NCBI RefSeq assembly: GCF_014647195.1
Contig: NZ_BMOS01000029.1
Location: 7,201 to 42,247 of the forward strand
Direction of reading: 5' to 3'
Length of the DNA: 35,047 bases
DNA from: Oceanobacillus indicireducens
Lineage (GTDB): Bacteria > Bacillota > Bacilli > Bacillales > Amphibacillaceae
Below the pieces are notes generated by a model. That model saw only the letters and a program-made list of their open reading frames with translations, had not been told where the DNA came from and made no database searches. Position 1 is the first letter of the stretch, and the number at the start of each line of letters is the position of its first letter. A program made the position numbers and the translations under genes. Shown here in pieces: positions 331-22,805 of the stretch.

Positions 331-1884
331 ATGTCTTTAAATGAGCAATATCTTTTATATACCTTTGCAAATGATCTTGTGAAAAATCATAGATTTAACT
401 TATTATATTTAAATGAGAAGACAAATGAAGTCTGGTTAGAGAAAAATGAAAACCGTACTTCAATCGTTGTGCGCCTCATACATAAAGGATTTGATTGGAA
501 AAACCATTTAAAACAGGATATCTCATTTTTATTTCAACGGGTTCGAAACGTAAAACAATTATTAGGCAAGAATATAGAGGTATATAACCTTTATTTTACA
601 AAGCATCAGCCTGTAGATACATGGGAAATACTGAAACAGCCATTGACCGCTGAAGGAAAACCGAAAGTAAGCATGAGAGTTTATTATTTGGATCAAGAAG
701 AATATGTTCACGAAGCGGAACGGTTTGAACAAGATTTGCTGCCACACCAACCTATTTCCTATAACCTTGAATTACCAGATGAGAGAAAAGAAGAAGTTGT
801 GGAAGAAACTAAATATGACTTTGTATCTTCATTAAAGAATAAACGGAAAGAAGTCGAAAATATTTTTAGCTTCGGAAGACCACTCTTTTCTTATGCATTT
901 ATCATTATTAATTTGCTTTGCTTTTTTTATATTGAATGGAAAGGGGATAGCACTTCGATTGAAACGCTTATCGAATTCGGTGCAAAGTATAATCCTGCGA
1001 TGATAATCGATGGGGAGTGGTGGCGTTTGTTTAGCTCCATGTTTATCCACATTGGATTTATTCATCTCGCCTTAAACATGCTCGCCGTCTACTATTTAGG
1101 TACTGCAATTGAGAAAATCTTTGGAAGCAGCCGTTTTGTTCTCATTTATTTTATAGCCGGTTTAGGTGGTTCAATCGCGAGTTTCGCCTTTACGACAAGC
1201 GTTAGTGCCGGCGCTTCGGGGGCGATATTTGGTTTGTTCGGTGCGTTTCTTTATTTTGGTATTATACATAAACGATTATTCTTCCAAACAATTGGGTCAA
1301 GCATACTGCTTGTATTAGCTATAAATTTAGTGATTGGTTTATCCATTGATGAAATCGACATGGCGGCTCATGTTGGTGGACTAATCGCCGGATTCCTTGC
1401 TGCAGCAATTGTTGGCATGCCTAAGAATAAGCGGCCATTATTCCAAATCGGTACTGCAATCATTACCGCTGGTTTACTGTTTGGGGTTACATATTATGGC
1501 GTCCATGCAAATGAAAATAGCCAATCATTTCAATTATTACAGATCCAAGAGCATTTAGCTGATCATGATTATGAAAAGGTTGTTAATGTAGCAACGGACG
1601 CATTAGAGTTAAATGGGGATATGGAAAGCGCCCTTTTATTCCAACGCTCCTACGCTTACATCAAGCTTGGACGGTATGAAGAAGCATTGATTGATTTAGA
1701 AGAGAGTGTCACCTATGATAATCCTTTGCCAGAAGCATATCACAACTTGGCGATTTTATATGATCTCGAGGGAGATACTGAAAAATCTAAAGAAGCAATC
1801 GAACGAGCTTACCAAATGGACCCAACCAATGAAGATGTCATCGATCTATATGAAGAAATAATCGGAAACTCACCGACAAAGTAA
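331..1884 (+). CDS. gluP: Rhomboid family intramembrane serine protease GluP (YqgP) with TPR tail
   Basis: Membrane-embedded serine protease that cleaves substrates inside the bilayer. In B. subtilis, YqgP works with FtsH in membrane protein quality control, including turnover of the magnesium transporter MgtE. The 517 residues fit the family (B. subtilis about 507). Residues 1-180 form a soluble domain and about 183-395 a multi-helix rhomboid core. The catalytic pair is Ser296 in GASGAIFG and His347 in AAHVGG. Helix-initiating motifs (EWWRLFSSMFIH, HLALNM) are present. Residues 400-510 carry TPR-like repeats (YEKVVNVATDALELN, YEEALIDLEES, DTEKSKEAIERAYQMDP). The ATG follows GGAAGGTGA. It begins the conserved gluP-yqgQ-glcK block. 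Confidence 0.95.
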   Translation: MSLNEQYLLYTFANDLVKNHRFNLLYLNEKTNEVWLEKNENRTSIVVRLIHKGFDWKNHLKQDISFLFQRVRNVKQLLGKNIEVYNLYFTKHQPVDTWEILKQPLTAEGKPKVSMRVYYLDQEEYVHEAERFEQDLLPHQPISYNLELPDERKEEVVEETKYDFVSSLKNKRKEVENIFSFGRPLFSYAFIIINLLCFFYIEWKGDSTSIETLIEFGAKYNPAMIIDGEWWRLFSSMFIHIGFIHLALNMLAVYYLGTAIEKIFGSSRFVLIYFIAGLGGSIASFAFTTSVSAGASGAIFGLFGAFLYFGIIHKRLFFQTIGSSILLVLAINLVIGLSIDEIDMAAHVGGLIAGFLAAAIVGMPKNKRPLFQIGTAIITAGLLFGVTYYGVHANENSQSFQLLQIQEHLADHDYEKVVNVATDALELNGDMESALLFQRSYAYIKLGRYEEALIDLEESVTYDNPLPEAYHNLAILYDLEGDTEKSKEAIERAYQMDPTNEDVIDLYEEIIGNSPTK

Positions 1885-1961
1885 CGACTAGGTCCGATCT
1901 AAGGCGATAAATTTATTTGGTTGTCTCATCATGTTATATTGCTTTAGTAAGGAAGTAACTC

Positions 1962-2072
1962 ATTTTTTCTCGGAACAGCCTCGTATTACCGAATGCCCCT
2001 GTGGGAAGAGAGGCTCATCAGCTGCCCACAATAAGTGCAGGTGTAAGGGGGCTGGTGAGCCGAGTAAAAAAG
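1962..2072. repeat. Degenerate palindromic intergenic repeat
   Basis: Intergenic stretch after gluP with an imperfect inverted repeat. The outer arms are TTTTTTCTCGG and CCGAGTAAAAAA; the inner arms are GGCTCATCAGCTGCCC and GGGGGCTGGTGAGCC. The GAGGCTCA...GGTGAGCC core resembles the element at 43-163, so it may be a worn copy of that family. The rest of 1885-2236 holds a terminator and a promoter but no further gene. Confidence 0.45.
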
Positions 2073-2136
2073 ATTAATATTTTAACCTCTCGTAACAATA
2101 ACATTAAACTACATCTCCCAGCCTATTTTCTTTTTT

Positions 2137-2170
2137 GGCAGTAAGACCCATTCTTACTGCCTTGTTTTCT
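2137..2170 (+). terminator. Rho-independent terminator upstream of yqgQ
   Basis: A perfect 10-bp stem, GGCAGTAAGA/TCTTACTGCC with loop CCCAT, is followed by TTGTTTTCT. It lies about 250 bases after gluP and just before the yqgQ promoter, so gluP is probably transcribed separately from yqgQ-glcK. A T-rich tract on its left side could let it also work on the other strand. Confidence 0.75.
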
Positions 2171-2208
2171 AATAAAACTTCGCTATAATTTTCTTTACAT
2201 TGATTCCT

Positions 2209-2218
2209 TTGGTATAAT
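2209..2218 (+). promoter_or_regulatory. Extended -10 promoter for yqgQ-glcK
   Basis: TTGGTATAAT contains a TGn extension directly before a perfect TATAAT at 2213-2218, 19 bases before the yqgQ start codon. No good -35 box is found at 17 bases, which is common for extended -10 promoters. Confidence 0.5.
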
Positions 2219-2236
2219 AGAGAGTGGTGAAATTTA

Positions 2237-2455
2237 TTGAACTCTGTATATGACGTCCGAATGCTTTTAAAGCGATTCGGCACATTCGTTTATTCACGAG
2301 ATCGTATCGGCGATCTTATATTAATGGAAAGTGAACTTGAAGAACTTTATAAATTGGGTTTTATTTCACAACAACTATACATTAGTGGGAAACTTGTTCT
2401 ACAAAAAGAAAGAAATGCATTAGAAGAGGCAGAAAGAGGGCAAAGTCATGAATAA
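2237..2455 (+). CDS. yqgQ: YqgQ family small protein
   Basis: A 72-residue protein of the YqgQ family (DUF910), a small helical protein found just upstream of glucokinase in Bacillaceae. It has no established biochemical role. The family-like elements YDVRMLLKRFG and LMESELEELYKLG are visible. It starts with TTG behind a GTGGTGAA site and overlaps the start of glcK by 8 bases, so the two are co-transcribed and probably translationally coupled. Confidence 0.85.
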   Translation: MNSVYDVRMLLKRFGTFVYSRDRIGDLILMESELEELYKLGFISQQLYISGKLVLQKERNALEEAERGQSHE

Positions 2456-3419
2456 ATATATGATTGGCATTGATATCGGCGGCACTTCCATTAAGTTTGG
2501 CTTATTCACGGCTGAAGGGGAACTCCTGCACAAGTGGAATATCCCAACAAGAACTGAAGACAATGGTTTTTTCATATTGCCGGATACCTGGGCATCTATA
2601 AAAGAAATTCTAGAAAAGAAGGATATAACAACGGATGAGATTCTCGGTATCGGAGCAGGAATTCCAGGCTTTATCAGTAGTGAAGAAGGTATTGTCCACT
2701 ATGGAACGAATATAGGATGGAGAAATAAGCAGTTCACGAAAGAACTGAGTGATTTATCCGGCTTACCTGTATTTATCGAAAATGATGCAAACATGGCTGT
2801 GTTAGGTGAAAATTGGCAAGGTGCAGGGAATGAAGGAAAGCATGTTATTGCCGTTACGCTCGGAACTGGAGTTGGCGGTGGCATCATAGCTAACGGTTCA
2901 ATCCTAAATGGAATAAGTGGCATGGCCGGAGAACTTGGACATATATTAATTGAAGAGAACGGAGCACCTTGCAATTGCGGAAAGAGTGGTTGTTTAGAAA
3001 CAATCGCTTCAGCTACCGGCATAGTAAGGCTCGCAAAGGATTTAAGCATAAAACAGCCGGAATCAGAACTTGCTAAAATGTATAATGAAAAAAAGGATCT
3101 TACAGCAAAAGATGTTTTTCAATTGGCTGAGAAAGCCGATAAAGCTGCAATGGAAATAGTCAGTACGGTTGCAGCAACATTAGGGCGAACATTTGCGGAT
3201 TTAGGTGTCATACTGAATCCGGAGAAAATCTTGATTGGTGGTGGGGTCTCTCAAGCTGGGGAACCATTTATCAATCAAATTCGTGATCATTTTGAAGCCT
3301 ATGCTTTACCACGGGTAAAAGCTAACTGTGAAATCAAGCAAGCTGTACTTGGCAATGATGCGGGTATCATCGGAGCAGCTTTCTGTGTTAAGCAGAATGT
3401 GGAAAAAAGTTTACTCTAG
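2448..3419 (+). CDS. glcK: ROK family glucokinase
   Basis: ATP-dependent glucokinase that phosphorylates intracellular glucose to glucose-6-phosphate, serving glucose freed from disaccharides. At 323 residues it matches B. subtilis GlcK. The N-terminal phosphate-binding motif DIGGTSIKFGLF is at residues 9-20. The ENDANMA segment supplies the catalytic Asp, and LGTGVGGGII is the second phosphate loop. The ROK zinc motif is CNCGKSGCLE, with the preceding GH (GELGHILIEE) as further ligand. IGGGVSQAG closes the sugar kinase fold. The ATG follows AGAGGG and lies inside the yqgQ 3' end. Confidence 0.95.
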   Translation: MNKYMIGIDIGGTSIKFGLFTAEGELLHKWNIPTRTEDNGFFILPDTWASIKEILEKKDITTDEILGIGAGIPGFISSEEGIVHYGTNIGWRNKQFTKELSDLSGLPVFIENDANMAVLGENWQGAGNEGKHVIAVTLGTGVGGGIIANGSILNGISGMAGELGHILIEENGAPCNCGKSGCLETIASATGIVRLAKDLSIKQPESELAKMYNEKKDLTAKDVFQLAEKADKAAMEIVSTVAATLGRTFADLGVILNPEKILIGGGVSQAGEPFINQIRDHFEAYALPRVKANCEIKQAVLGNDAGIIGAAFCVKQNVEKSLL

Positions 3420-3482
3420 ATTTTTTTCTGCTTATCTAGTAAAATAAGATGTCAGAAAAACTATGAAGCAAATGTAAAAAAA

Positions 3483-3509
3483 TGAAACCTTTATTAGTTG
3501 GTTTACGTC
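3483..3509 (+). promoter_or_regulatory. ECF sigma factor promoter (sigma-M/X/W type) for the LTA synthase gene
   Basis: TGAAAC at 3483-3488 and CGTC at 3506-3509 are separated by 17 bases. This matches the Bacillus cell-envelope-stress ECF promoter pattern (TGAAAC, 16-17 bases, CGTC). It lies about 100 bases before the LTA synthase start. A sigma-M promoter drives the stress LTA synthase ltaSA in B. subtilis, so the logic fits, but which ECF factor reads it cannot be told. Confidence 0.7.
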
Positions 3510-3610
3510 TAATAGTATAAGTGGGTTGTAAAAAACAGTTTACAAATTGCTCAAAGAGGGAATAGTGGAGTTTAACGCGTCTGTTCTCTTTATATTTGGG
3601 AGGATTTAGA

Positions 3611-5539
3611 ATGAGGAAAAAACAAGCAAGAATACCGTTATATATTATTGCGTCCTTGCTATTCGGTCTTAAAACATATATTGTTTACCGTTTTATGTTT
3701 AATATTGAACTAGATAATAGAATGCAAGAGCTCATCTTATTTATTAATCCGTTTGTCTCGGCATTTCTAATTTTTGCAGTGTCCGTTTGGTTTAACAAAC
3801 CATCAAGACAAATGAAATACTTGCGTTATACAGCATTTATTTTCAGCTTTATCGTATTTGCTAACTTAGTATTCTATCGTCAATTTACGGACTTTATTAC
3901 ACTTCCGCAATTATTTATGGGAAGCAACATGACGGATTTGGGTTCAAGTATTCTTACGTTGATTAAACCATATGACATTCTGTTATTTACAGATGCCGCA
4001 ATTATTTGGTATTTGAGTAAAAAGAAAGAATCAACTTTATCTGTTCAGTATTTGAAGCGAGGAAAAGCTTTTGCGCTTTCCATGTCTCTATTGTTGCTTG
4101 CGGGTAACTTTTTCTTAGCTGAAATGGAAAGACCGCAATTATTTACCCGTGCATTTGACAGGGAGTATTTAGTGAAGAATATCGGATTATTTAATTACCA
4201 TGTCTATGACCTTGTTATACATTCGAAAACAGAGTCGCAACGTGTGTTCGCAGATGGAAATGAAATCCCGGAAATTAAAGATTATATTGAAGAAAATGTA
4301 AAAGTGACCGAGAAATCGGATATGTTCGGGGTTGCTGAAGGTAAAAATGTTATATTCATCAATGCGGAATCGGTCCAAGGCTTTGTTGTAGGAAAAGAAG
4401 TGAATGGGCAAGAAATTACACCATTCCTCAATAAGCTTGTTGAAGATGAGGATACGTATTACTTCGATAACTTCTTTGAACAAACGGGTCAAGGGAAGAC
4501 ATCGGATTCAGAATTCCTAGTTGAAAATTCATTATATCCACTTTCAAGAGGGGCTGTATTTTTCACTCATGGAGGTAATGAATACCATGCTCTACCTGAA
4601 ATACTGAAGGAAGAGGATTACTTTTCAGCAGTGCTTCATGCGAATAATAAGAGTTTCTGGAACCGTGATGGGATGTACAGAAGCTTGAACCTTGATCATT
4701 TTTATAGTGATGAAGCTTATGAAATAACCGATGAAAATTCAGTTGGCTGGGGACTCAAGGATAAACCGTACTTTGAACAATCAATTAAGTATTTACAAGC
4801 AATGGAACAACCATTCTATACGAAATTCATTACACTGACTAACCACTTCCCATTTGAATTGGATGAAGAAGACAAATCAATCGAACCATATGATTCCAAT
4901 TCGAATACGTTAAATAATTACTTCCCGACCGTACGTTATGCGGATGAAGCGATGGAAGAATTCTTCGATCACCTAAAACAGGCAGGTCTTTATGAAGATT
5001 CTATCATCATTATTATGGGAGACCATATTGGAATCAGTGCTAACCATAATCGTGCTATGAGCATGTTCTTGGATAAGGAAGAAATTACACCATATGACCA
5101 GGTCCAGTTACTAAAAGTACCATTATTCATTCACATACCAGGTCATGGCAAAGGGGAAACAATCTCTACAGTTTCCGGTCAAATTGACTTAAAGCCGACA
5201 ATTCTAAGCCTTCTTGGGATTGAACATAAAAACGATATTTACTTCGGTAATGATTTATTTGCAAAGAACCGAAAAGGCTATATCGCTTTGAGAAACGGTG
5301 ATTTTGTGAGTGATGATTATCTTTCAACGGCAGGTATGTGCTATGATGTTCATACTGGTGAACTAGCTGATGTGGAGGAAGAAGCTACATCAGAGGAAGA
5401 AGCTACTACAGGAACGAGCAGTCCTTGTGATGAAATTGCTGAAAAAGTAGAATTGGAATTAAGCTATTCCGATAACATTATATATGGAGATCTATTCCGT
5501 TTTGTAGATTTCGCAGAAGAAAAACAGGTAGAGAAGTAA
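3611..5539 (+). CDS. yqgS: LTA synthase family protein (YqgS-like)
   Basis: Polyglycerolphosphate lipoteichoic acid synthase family, which moves glycerol phosphate from phosphatidylglycerol onto a growing chain outside the membrane. About five N-terminal membrane helices (residues 8-175) precede an extracellular sulfatase-fold domain. Active-site features are Glu253 (NAESVQGF), the nucleophile Thr297 (GQGKTSDSEF), and Asp471/His472 (MGDHIG). The name follows synteny with B. subtilis yqgS, between glcK and yqgX. ATG 3611 is chosen because GGGAGG lies 7 bases upstream; a TTG 15 bases earlier overlaps that site. The acidic tail contains a tandem EEEAT duplication. The message ends in a strong terminator overlapping the stop codon. 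Confidence 0.93.
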   Translation: MRKKQARIPLYIIASLLFGLKTYIVYRFMFNIELDNRMQELILFINPFVSAFLIFAVSVWFNKPSRQMKYLRYTAFIFSFIVFANLVFYRQFTDFITLPQLFMGSNMTDLGSSILTLIKPYDILLFTDAAIIWYLSKKKESTLSVQYLKRGKAFALSMSLLLLAGNFFLAEMERPQLFTRAFDREYLVKNIGLFNYHVYDLVIHSKTESQRVFADGNEIPEIKDYIEENVKVTEKSDMFGVAEGKNVIFINAESVQGFVVGKEVNGQEITPFLNKLVEDEDTYYFDNFFEQTGQGKTSDSEFLVENSLYPLSRGAVFFTHGGNEYHALPEILKEEDYFSAVLHANNKSFWNRDGMYRSLNLDHFYSDEAYEITDENSVGWGLKDKPYFEQSIKYLQAMEQPFYTKFITLTNHFPFELDEEDKSIEPYDSNSNTLNNYFPTVRYADEAMEEFFDHLKQAGLYEDSIIIIMGDHIGISANHNRAMSMFLDKEEITPYDQVQLLKVPLFIHIPGHGKGETISTVSGQIDLKPTILSLLGIEHKNDIYFGNDLFAKNRKGYIALRNGDFVSDDYLSTAGMCYDVHTGELADVEEEATSEEEATTGTSSPCDEIAEKVELELSYSDNIIYGDLFRFVDFAEEKQVEK

Positions 5540-14781: not shown

Positions 14782-14923
14782 ATGTTACACCCCGAGTATC
14801 TAAATAAAATTTGGATTTCACTATACCTTTTTTAAATATTATGGTATATTCAATGCAAAGGTAGAGGATTTCTTATGATAGACTTAGTTTTACCATTATA
14901 AAAAAATATATGCTGTGGATGAA

Positions 14924-15117
14924 GATAAGGGGAGAGCTTACATGATCTTAATGTAACGCCGAAGGAGCAAGCTTAAGACGAATCTCTCAGGCAAAAAGAC
15001 TCTTATCGGACACAACTCTGGAGAGCGTTTACATCTTGTAAACCACCCAAGAAGCAAGTAGGAACGGAAGGGAAACCTGGCATGTTCTTGCGCAACTTTC
15101 TGGTAGAAGGACAGAGA
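14924..15117 (+). promoter_or_regulatory. Tandem glycine riboswitch
   Basis: Two adjacent glycine aptamers control the gcv operon. Aptamer I (about 14924-15029) shows GGGGAGAG, CGCCGAAGGAGCAAGC, AATCTCTCAGGCAAAAAGA and CAACTCTGGAGAGC. A short linker hairpin, GTTTACATCTTGTAAAC, follows. Aptamer II (about 15045-15117) shows CCACCCAAGAAGCAAG, AACTTTCTGGTAGAAGGACAGAG. The sequence follows the B. subtilis gcvT riboswitch closely. Binding of glycine by aptamer II should hold GGACAGAG, which otherwise starts the downstream terminator stem, so glycine turns the operon on. Aptamer II has CTTTCTGGT where CTTTCAGGT is usual. Confidence 0.93.
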
Positions 15118-19797: not shown

Positions 19798-19845
19798 ACA
19801 CAATATATAGTGTGTTCACTCGTTAATTGATACCATATATTGTTT
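19798..19845 (+). promoter_or_regulatory. Pair of NrdR boxes overlapping the nrdJ transcription start
   Basis: Box 1, ACACAATATATAGTGT (19798-19813), fits the NrdR consensus ACACwATATATwGTGT at all 16 positions. Box 2, ATACCATATATTGTTT (19830-19845), fits at 13. Their starts are 32 bases apart, about three helical turns, the spacing known for NrdR operators. They begin right after the -10 box, so bound NrdR would block transcription of nrdJ when dATP is high. The nrdR gene itself is not in the window. Confidence 0.85.
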
Positions 19846-19918: not shown

Positions 19919-22805
19919 GTGTCGACGATATTAGAAAAAGTGAATGGAATTGATGTTGTTTCATTGAATAAGGATATTGAATTATTTGATGCAGTACATC
20001 CGATTACTAGTGATATGAAGCTCACACATAGTGGAGTCTCACGCTTAGTTATGCTCGACAGATACGCTTTTAAAGATACAGGAAAAGCTACATTAAAAAC
20101 TGGTGATTTTGTTGTTTTAACAGTGAAATCCGATCCTAAATTCCCAGCTAGAGGGTTAGGATTTGTACAAGCAATCAATTGGGAGAAAAATGAAGCAGAT
20201 ATTAAAGTTCTGGATGAATTTGTATCTACCCTCGATAACGAAGTAGAGATGGAAACAGGTATTATCACGCGTTCGCTTGATGTAATTGATAAACCGCTTG
20301 AAGTCTTTTATGAGCAAATCGCTAAACGAAATGCGACCGGCTTAGCAGTAGTGGAGGAAACGGAAGAAAAACGTAAAGAATCATTTGAAATGTTTTATAA
20401 GGAACTAGCTGATCTTAATTTCGTGCCAGCAGGACGTGTGTTATACGGTGCAGGTGCAAATACGGATGTAACATACTTTAATTGCTATGTGATGCCATAT
20501 GTAAAAGATTCCCGGGAAGGTATTTCCGATCACCGGAAGCAAGTAATGGAAATCATGTCCCGTGGTGGAGGAGTAGGGACAAATGGTTCAACACTTCGTC
20601 CGAGAAACACATTGGCACGCGGAGTAAACGGAAAGTCATCCGGATCCGTATCCTGGCTTGACGATATTGCCAAACTGACTCATTTAGTAGAACAAGGCGG
20701 ATCGAGACGTGGTAAATCTGCTTAAGTGCCTCGTCTATAAATAAACCTCGTGAATTGCTGGAAACTCTTTTTATGACTTGCTGGCTACAACGTAACTGGA
20801 AACGGTAAGCGTGAATGCTTGAAAACAGCAAGTGGTTAAAGACAATCAGCAGCCAAGCACCTGCTCGAATGGTGAAGGTTCAACGACCATCGAAAGCACA
20901 CTTAAATGTGGAAGCGAGTAGAGTAGGAGTCAAGTGACTCCGAAGTGCGAGGACATTCGAAAGGGAATGTAAGATATGGTCTGAACTTCAGGGTGACCTG
21001 GAGAGTTGATGTAACGGATCAACGCAACATAATTGGCGCAAATGATTATGCTTGTGGATTCTCACCCGGATATTATTGAGTTCATCATCTCAAAAATGCA
21101 GAATCCGCGTATTTTAAGATATTTAATCGAAAATACAGAAGATGAACAAATCAAAACGCTGGCAAGAGAAAAACTGAACTTCACTCCACTTACAGAGACG
21201 GAGATTGATTTATATACAAGTGTACAAAACTATAAAGGTTTCCCAGGTCTTGGAGGATTTACAGAGGCCTCCATGCGTGAGGCTGGGCAGAAGTTAAGAG
21301 ATGGCGGTTCCTATAGTGTTCATAATCCAGATTTCCTAACAGGAGCTAATATTTCCGTATGTATTACAAAAGAATTCATGGAAGCTGTAGAAAATGACGA
21401 AATGTATGAACTGCGCTTCCCGGATGTGGAAAATTATACACCGGAAGAAATGAAAGCATATAACGAAAAGTGGCATGAAGTTGGCGACGTTCGTAAGTGG
21501 GAAGCAATGGGTTATGGTGTTCGCGTTTATCGCCGCATCCGAGCTAAAGAACTATGGAACTTAATCAACGTTTGTGCGACCTATTCCGCAGAACCTGGAA
21601 TTTTCTTTATCGATAATGCGAATGATATGACAAACGCATCAAGCTACGGACAGCAAGTTGTCGCAACAAACCCATGTGGAGAACAGCCACTCGCACCCTA
21701 CAGTGTATGTAACTTGGCTGCTGTAAACTTAGCGGTAATGGCTGACAAAGTAAACAAAACAGTGGACTATGAGAAACTAAAAGAAACAGTCCGCACCGGA
21801 GTTAGAATGCAGGATAATGTTATTGATGCAACACCATATTTCCTTGAAGAAAATAGAAAGCAAGCCCTCGGTGAACGTCGGGTTGGCCTTGGGGTAATGG
21901 GGCTGCACGACCTGCTCATCTACACGGAAACGAGATATGGTTCAGAAGAAGGTAACGCACTTGTTGATAAAGTATTTGAAACAATTGCAACGAGCGCTTA
22001 CCGAGCTTCCATTGAACTTGCAAAAGAAAAAGGCAGTTTCCCGTTCTTGATCGGTGAAACAGATGAAGAAACGAATCGGTTGCGTCATGCATTTATCAAT
22101 ACTGGTTATATGAAAACAATGCCGGAAGATATTCGCGAAGGTATTTTGAAACACGGTATTCGTAACTCCCACTTGCTAACAGTTGCTCCGACTGGAAGCA
22201 CTGGAACAATGGTTGGGGTATCGACTGGGCTTGAGCCATACTTCTCCTTCTCCTACTTCAGAAGTGGTCGCTTAGGTAAATTTATTGAAGTGAATGCAGC
22301 AATTGTTGAGGAGTATTTGGAGAACAATCCAGAAGCAGATAAAGAAAACTTACCAGAATGGTTCGTATCTGCGATGGATCTTTCAGCTGAAGAACATGCG
22401 GATACACAATGTGTCATCCAGCGCTGGGTAGACAGCTCTATTTCGAAAACAGTTAACGCTCCAAAAGGCTACACGGTTGAACAAGTAGAAAGTGTCTATC
22501 AGAGATTGTACAAGGGAGGAGCAAAAGGCGGAACCGTATATGTTGACGGAAGCCGTGACTCTCAAGTACTGACACTGAAAGCCGAAGAAAATACAGTTGG
22601 CGAGCAGACAGAATTGTTCGAAGATGAAACTGATAAGCCGAAAGTTGTTTTAATGGACACAATTCAAGAACTGGATTCTACAAATGTAAATATCGGTTCT
22701 GAAATTGGGGATACATGCCCAGTATGTCGCCAGGGAAGCATTGAGGACATTGGTGGATGCAACACATGTACAAACTGTGCTGCCCAATTAAAATGTGGTA
22801 TATAA
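19919..22805 (+). CDS. nrdJ: B12-dependent (class II) ribonucleotide reductase NrdJ, joined over a group I intron
   Basis: Reduces ribonucleotides to deoxyribonucleotides with adenosylcobalamin as radical source. The coding parts are 19919-20713 (265 codons) and 21036-22805 (589 codons plus stop), giving 854 residues; unspliced RNA meets a stop four codons into the intron. GTG 19919 follows AAAGGAG. Marks in the joined protein are the redox Cys189 (YFNCYVMPY), GGGVGTNGSTLRP, GGSRRG|AQMIML across the junction, NPCGEQPLAPYSVCNL (Cys479 and Cys490), APTGSTGTMVGVSTG, and a C-terminal cysteine cluster (CPVCRQG...CNTCTNC). Transcription is probably controlled by NrdR. The gene stands where B. subtilis has yqhM, and ends in a strong terminator. 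Confidence 0.92.
20714..21035 (+). ncRNA. Group I self-splicing intron in nrdJ (no ORF, 322 nt)
   Basis: The 5' exon ends in U (20713) and the intron in G (21035), as group I introns require. P1: exon AGACGTGGT (20705-20713) pairs with the guide GCCTCGTCT (20728-20736), with one U-U mismatch and the U-G pair at the splice site. P4: TTGCTG (20755-20760) with CAGCAG (20847-20852). P7: GACCA (20885-20889) with TGGTC (20977-20981), inside the conserved GTTCAACGACCAT and AAGATATGGTCT. P9 is CAGG-GTGA-CCTG (20989-21000), and P9.1 pairs GTTGAT with ATCAAC. Hairpins between the P7 strands (GGAGTC/GACTCC, ACATTC/GAATGT) suggest subgroup IA. Splicing restores the frame at phase 0. No homing endonuclease is present. 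Confidence 0.93.

Follow-up and report, generated by a model that had tools for sequence, protein, structure and literature searches.

Why does the reading frame of a class II ribonucleotide reductase gene stop in Oceanobacillus indicireducens and resume 322 bases later, and can an intact enzyme still be made from it? In the stretch of 35,047 nucleotides that we analysed (the window), the nrdJ frame that opens at 19919 halts at 20725, reading GGSRRG-KSA-stop, and a second nrdJ frame picks up at 21036 with AQMIML. An ORF listing assigns this second frame a TTG start at 21033, and automatic annotation would give two broken genes in place of a likely working enzyme. Joining 20713 to 21036 produces 265 + 589 codons, a stop-free NrdJ of 854 residues at phase 0. 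The split, the AQMIML resumption, the 854-residue product and the TTG start had all been claimed in an earlier, sequence-only reading of this DNA, and all are borne out. When compared with the NCBIfam model PRK08115 (vitamin B12-dependent ribonucleotide reductase), exon 1 matches profile positions 6-266 at 477 bits, under the whole-protein cut-off of 854, and exon 2 matches positions 266-858 at 1142 bits, passing the cut-off alone and identifying the host gene as a class II ribonucleotide reductase.

19919..20713, forward strand: nrdJ exon 1; 265 codons ending in GGSRRG; PRK08115 positions 6-266; runs straight into exon 2 in relatives that lack the intron.
21036..22805, forward strand: nrdJ exon 2; 589 codons plus stop; PRK08115 positions 266-858; TTG start at 21033 in the ORF listing.

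Our results favor the explanation that the interval is a splicing group I intron which restores NrdJ, and which belongs to a formerly mobile lineage whose endonuclease was deleted and which is now passively inherited. We assign this explanation as a whole a probability of about 0.93. The transcribed intron would fold into the standard P3-P8 ribozyme core, and its guide would pair with the final nine bases of exon 1 to form P1, with a U-G pair at the cut. Guanosine bound in P7 would then cleave at the 5' splice site, after which ligation of the exons would restore NrdJ, by the chemistry expected from the intron family.

The interval 20714-21035 is confirmed as a group I intron inside nrdJ. The Rfam model RF00028 (Intron_gpI), a search with which had been proposed as a check, matches this interval at 60.7 bits, above its gathering score of 50 (E 3.5e-13); the only other Rfam match in the window is a glycine riboswitch aptamer at 14919-15012, upstream of gcvT- and gcvP-like genes. 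The elements named in the sequence-only reading could all be located, i.e. P1 and its U-G pair at the 5' splice site, P4, both strands of P7, a P9 capped by GUGA and the terminal G, and the 322 nt hold no ORF, as it had stated. P1 is drawn differently in the Rfam alignment than in our model, which has the following parts.

20714..21035, forward strand: 322-nt group I intron lacking an ORF; RF00028 at 60.7 bits; pair counts below from 14 introns; empty sites in relatives.
20705..20736, forward strand: P1; 5' exon AGACGTGGT followed by A (20705-20714), paired to the internal guide at 20727-20736; splice-site U-G in 14 of 14.
20746-20752 with 20946-20952, forward strand: P3; 100% of cells paired, two-sided change in one pair.
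20755-20761 with 20846-20852, forward strand: P4; 100% of cells paired, six of seven pairs invariant.
20766-20770 with 20839-20842 and 20776-20785 with 20817-20833, forward strand: P5 and its extension, within 20766..20842.
20775..20795, forward strand: endonuclease relic; last codons DLLATT plus stop; overlaps the P5 extension.
20858-20861 with 20871-20874, forward strand: P6; 100% of cells paired, two-sided change in two of four pairs.
20883-20890 with 20976-20982, forward strand: P7, pseudoknot with P3; 99% of cells paired, no two-sided change.
20896..20915, forward strand: P7.1-type hairpin; two-sided change in five of six pairs.
20926..20941, forward strand: P7.2-type hairpin; two-sided change in four of six pairs.
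20953..20970, forward strand: P8; two-sided change in four of five pairs.
20986..21003, forward strand: P9 with GUGA tetraloop; two-sided change in five of seven pairs.
21005..21023, forward strand: further P9 hairpin; two-sided change in five of six pairs.

The fold was evaluated in an alignment of 14 introns shorter than 345 nt with short exon flanks, the window's included, out of the 31 distinct introns at this site then collected. An unprompted consensus fold gave helices that we identified as P1, P3, P4, P5, P6, P8 and P9; being nested, it put the P7 strands in other pairs, and the seven P7 pairs were entered by hand as a pseudoknot before pairs were counted. Twelve pairs that competed with the group I model or lay outside it were dropped before counting (columns 8-9/370-371, 199-202/207-210, 212-213/245-246 and 301-304/308-311). 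On this basis pairing is found in 98.7% of 1196 cells, falling to 34-39% once the partners are slid, and two-sided change occurs in 34 of 86 pairs versus a shuffled mean of 16.6. Five pairing measures were compared with 500 shuffles; four were never reached (0/500), and the fifth, further pair types, was equalled or beaten by 8/500. P7, the guanosine-binding helix of group I introns, is nearly invariant (five of seven pairs), as is P4, so covariation says little about either helix. Folded singly with short exon flanks, the window's sequence lies 3.3 sd below dinucleotide shuffles, with 0/100 as low. Introns of subgroup IA (IA2-like) are marked by two hairpins, P7.1 and P7.2, that separate P7 from P3. 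Two covarying hairpins occupy this position here; we take them to be of the P7.1 and P7.2 types, and subgroup IA is a candidate assignment.

Signals at the borders recur in the wider set of 49 distinct introns at this site. The 5' exon ends in U (T) in every one, and the final base is G in 46, including the window's; the other three (L100, L125 and L156) end in A at the boundary that the protein requires. Other kinds of insertion were also considered. An intein is ruled out by the in-frame stop after three codons together with the lack of a long in-frame ORF, a group II intron at 20714-21035 is unsupported, since Rfam returns group I only, and a sequencing or assembly error is ruled out by the recurrence of the insert with a conserved fold in independent genomes.

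The intron is not rare, and its distribution is patchy. A query spanning it matched 26 of the 28 genomes of the genus, of which 19 contain the exact empty site: the exon flanks match, the intron is absent, and the joined motif is present in 19/19. The match blocks end at or shortly before query base 293 or 294 and resume at 616 or 617 (G027 gave the upstream block only). The comparison with intron-free nrdJ genes of relatives that the sequence-only reading had called for is thereby supplied. Six genomes run into the intron (G000, G001, G002, G004, G005 and G007), and the match in G017 is to the ribozyme part only and located elsewhere. At the level of the family, 106 of 159 genomes carry an AQMIML-coding pattern; it is joined as RRG-AQMIML, and hence empty, in 74, and the remaining 32 all bear an insert at the GGSRRG motif, namely the six cases in the genus and 26 others. 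Each of these 26 loci has roughly 300-1250 inserted bases at the motif, with an Rfam group I call above threshold in 20. The motif is uninterrupted in 69 and interrupted in 11 of 80 named nrdJ loci, which were picked by exon 2 similarity and are not a fair sample. At the level of the order, 18/18 fetched loci from 11 further family codes have the intron; these were chosen because they had matched an earlier search.

Does the intron still splice? The exon codons beside it offer a sequence-only sign of activity, a lock on synonymous codons that could be tried on introns in other protein genes. The three exon 1 codons that pair in P1 (R, R and G) are spelled AGA CGT GGT in 46/49 occupied genes versus 4/69 empty ones, a contrast for which the Fisher test ignores kinship. 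The 49 are distinct introns, with the off-register L028/L060, L089, L126 and L142 and seven exact duplicates left out. Gene pairs that agree in the amino acid also agree in the codon at positions -3 to -1 with a frequency of 0.96 if occupied versus 0.29 if empty; far upstream the frequencies are 0.41 and 0.39, and far downstream 0.53 and 0.52. A rise is likewise seen at codon -4, which lies outside P1 (0.74 versus 0.31), and modest ones occur elsewhere, e.g. at +1 (0.40 versus 0.27), +2 (0.88 versus 0.65) and -11 (0.67 versus 0.51). Most of the excess in codon identity falls on codons that take part in P1. In the simplest reading, selection removes synonymous changes that break P1, which would mean that the intron must splice. 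A preference for certain targets when the intron inserts may add to the pattern. As a cause, co-conversion of long stretches of flanking exon is poorly supported, because the large excess ends at codon -4.

The opposite view would be that the intron is a dead relic that does not splice, and that nrdJ is a pseudogene or yields two separate polypeptides. The endonuclease is indeed gone, and the early stop together with a possible internal TTG start at 21033 would suit separate products. However, the ribozyme is far better conserved than third codon positions (see below), both exons are still open and match the family model, the codon lock is centred on P1 across relatives, and the only other large-subunit ribonucleotide reductase gene of the host has a broken frame. 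We consider a dead relic very improbable, and the intron is almost certainly active in splicing, as judged from these conserved features.

The state of the remaining reductase genes bears on what splicing would mean to the host. An intact intron-free nrdJ elsewhere in the genome, which the sequence-only reading had held would, along with the lack of a covariance-model hit, speak against the intron, was looked for and not found in the assembly, where the sole other PF02867 gene is of class I and lies on another contig (C22, L118 1007-3233). This class I large-subunit gene is broken into two overlapping frames of 348 and 418 codons; it is a single frame of 751-780 codons in five of five relatives examined. 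With NrdD not found in the assembly and the sole other large-subunit gene broken in frame, the host appears to need nrdJ. The broken class I frame could reflect a fault in the assembly; should it be genuine, removal of the intron would be required for making deoxynucleotides, and splicing would be essential, which is easily tested.

Splicing may also be regulated, such that temperature, guanosine or translation would set the supply of NrdJ. An in-frame stop lies at most 12 codons into the intron in 49/49 cases, and at this stop ribosomes would halt ahead of the ribozyme core, which might benefit folding. Passages in PMC4853749 describe temperature-dependent introns in flagellin genes of thermophilic Firmicutes, and two more group I introns of the O. 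indicireducens genome lie next to flagellin-like frames. A required role is nevertheless hard to reconcile with the patchy presence of the intron, given that 74 of the 106 motif-bearing family genomes are empty, and Rfam shows no aptamer at the intron. We thus regard a regulatory switch as unlikely, and return to an intron that would be kept because splicing is still required.

The history of the intron is recorded in its relatives. In O. alkalisoli (L034), the nearest relative, whose exon 2 protein is 97% identical to that of the window, the same intron is 1233 nt long. Its extra stretch of about 900 nt directly precedes GACTTGCTGGCTACAACGTAA, the end of an endonuclease frame that is kept in the window at 20775-20795; the letters of this end are the same in L034 as in the window's relic, and the residues are the same in L103 (Bacillus sp. 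J33). The endonuclease gene of L034 is decayed and its frame broken. In L103 it is an open gene of 298 codons, which matches Pfam DUF559 at 29.7 bits against a cut-off of 20.6, with Vsr below cut-off; a search of PDB sequences for a solved EDxHD (I-Bth0305I-type) member gave no match at E 0.1. Nine introns exceed 1100 nt, with open stretches of 297-318 codons in three (L103, L146 and L171) and not in the other six. One or both ends of the endonuclease gene match at E 0.05 in seven of ten introns of intermediate length, and 30 of the 49 site introns are shorter than 345 nt. At the nrdJ site, stages in the decay of one mobile intron can consequently be followed in free-living bacteria, with the endonuclease frame open, broken, reduced to a stub, or gone. 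The description of the window's intron as endonuclease-free holds insofar that it contains no homing endonuclease ORF, only the last codons as a relic, but this is not the original state, the gene having been lost. According to our explanation, the P5 region of this intron lineage would once have held a gene for a DUF559/Vsr-like endonuclease, and homing would probably have carried the intron from one nrdJ gene to another within the order; on the branch leading to the window's copy the gene would have been deleted down to its last codons, leaving a copy that is now passively inherited.

With the endonuclease stretch excluded, the introns of the window and O. alkalisoli are 96.6% identical; at third positions of nrdJ, identity is 76% in exon 1 and 79% in exon 2. 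Compared with other hosts, the introns are 79-90% identical at third-position identities of 34-51%. An intron tree rejects the family's 30 rows as one clade (p 0.003), whereas the exon data do not reject a family clade (p 0.10). Rejection of the genus's six rows as one clade is marginal (p 0.024) and comes from the introns alone; a quick exon tree also splits the genus, and the clean contrast between intron and exon is therefore at the family level. The exon tree, which calls for five or more changes of occupancy over the 20 rows of the genus (six occupied), has 690 columns and is weakly resolved, with L172 as a long branch. By name, L034 was counted inside the genus and L103 outside the family. 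Because the intron trees conflict with the host groups, lateral spread of the intron is suggested.

Vertical inheritance with many losses, and with no lateral transfer, would be another history. Some host clades group in the intron tree too, and ribozyme constraint alone could hold introns alike. Against this stand the family-level contrast, the existence of open endonuclease frames, and an intron in Bacillus sp. J33 that is 90% identical to the window's at a third-position identity of 42%; strictly vertical descent seems to us improbable, and lateral spread the better account. Phages were considered as a source. A distant search of a phage collection matched 495 records, none of which covers 80% of the intron, and a direct phage donor was rejected. 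The widest cover among the matches listed is that of Bacillus phage SP-15 (73.7% identity over 72% of the intron), and 11 phage records are 95-99% identical over the matched part, none of them among the 20 matches listed.

The insertion point itself is not fixed. Of the 32 family inserts, 29 follow GGSRRG, two follow GGSRR (G007 = L028 and G085 = L142) and one follows GGSR (G040 = L126); in the named Fictibacillus gelatini locus L089 the insert likewise follows GGSR. In their 5' parts the off-register introns are 74-91% identical to one another and 69-71% to the window's. The guides of L028, L089 and L126, as judged by eye, complement their own exon spelling, U-G included, and this complementarity at shifted sites fits a movement that would follow base pairing. 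A tentative extension, which we hold to be somewhat less likely than its negation, is that GGSRRG is a hot spot at which one ribozyme lineage shifted among three insertion points three bases apart, its guide tracking the exon spelling, probably by RNA-level reverse splicing combined with DNA homing. A seated intron would then freeze synonymous codons, so that splicing, and not translation, would set them.

Further intervening sequences were noticed in nrdJ genes of relatives. On the minus strand of L126 (G040:C57:206800-210300), two group I introns, one after GGSR and one before WHPDII (boundaries by eye), flank a 30-nt nrdJ exon coding for RGAQMIMLAD. The congeners L024 (about 4047-4280) and L026 (about 3174-4365) contain a second intervening sequence between NPCG and E, in L026 with an ORF of 311 codons; neither was matched by Rfam at E 0.01, despite boundaries of group I-like appearance. 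In L080 (Terrihalobacillus insolitus, about 1268-4137) a stretch with group II intron matches splits nrdJ near residue 189.

The enzyme encoded by the ribonucleotide reductase (RIR) gene of Nostoc punctiforme is presumably of class II, as is NrdJ here. This gene is, like that of the window, a chromosomal bacterial reductase gene split by a group I intron, as mentioned in passages of PMC1995217 and PMC12702839 with reference to Meng et al. 2007; it differs in belonging to another phylum, and the title of Meng et al. reports an insertion sequence element. The sequence-only reading had called an insertion such as the window's less familiar, and this judgement is softened by the Nostoc case and by the inserts in 32 of 106 motif-bearing family genomes. 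Group I introns in nrdE and nrdF of Bacillus, prophages and phages (SPbeta, Twort and the B. cereus group, in passages of PMC3984707, PMC3653736 and PMC1995217) also interrupt conserved reductase genes, several with homing endonucleases. Those are class Ib genes, many of phage or prophage origin, with GIY-YIG or HNH endonucleases, whereas the intron described here lies in a class II host gene and its relatives carry a DUF559/Vsr-like enzyme. In the open-access library searched, we found no title or abstract opening that reports a group I intron at the nrdJ GGSRRG site. RNRdb states that more than 100 group I introns have been curated, so the nrdJ site may be among them. Of particular note are the locked codons beside the intron, its three neighbouring insertion points and a relative's 30-nt micro-exon.

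Group I introns in flagellin genes of thermophilic Bacillaceae, credited to Hayakawa and Ishizuka 2009 and 2012 in passages of PMC4853749 and PMC3984707, are a further comparison. The P3-P6 part of the window's intron shows 70% identity with a group I intron next to a flagellin-like frame elsewhere in this genome and 71-74% with the G011 introns (genes assigned by eye), and these introns differ from the window's in host gene, insertion site and guide. Two group I introns lie beside a flagellin-like frame, identified by eye, on the minus strand of contig C3 of the O. indicireducens genome (L029, 4114-4446 and 5435-5703), the second with PQGVLQLLQ-stop coding on both sides, and L031 2647-5446 (G011:C109) holds five group I introns in 2.8 kb among flagellin-like frames. 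In the window, upstream of nrdJ, 19798-19813 and 19830-19845 resemble NrdR boxes, agreeing at 15/16 and 12/16 positions with a consensus of that box.
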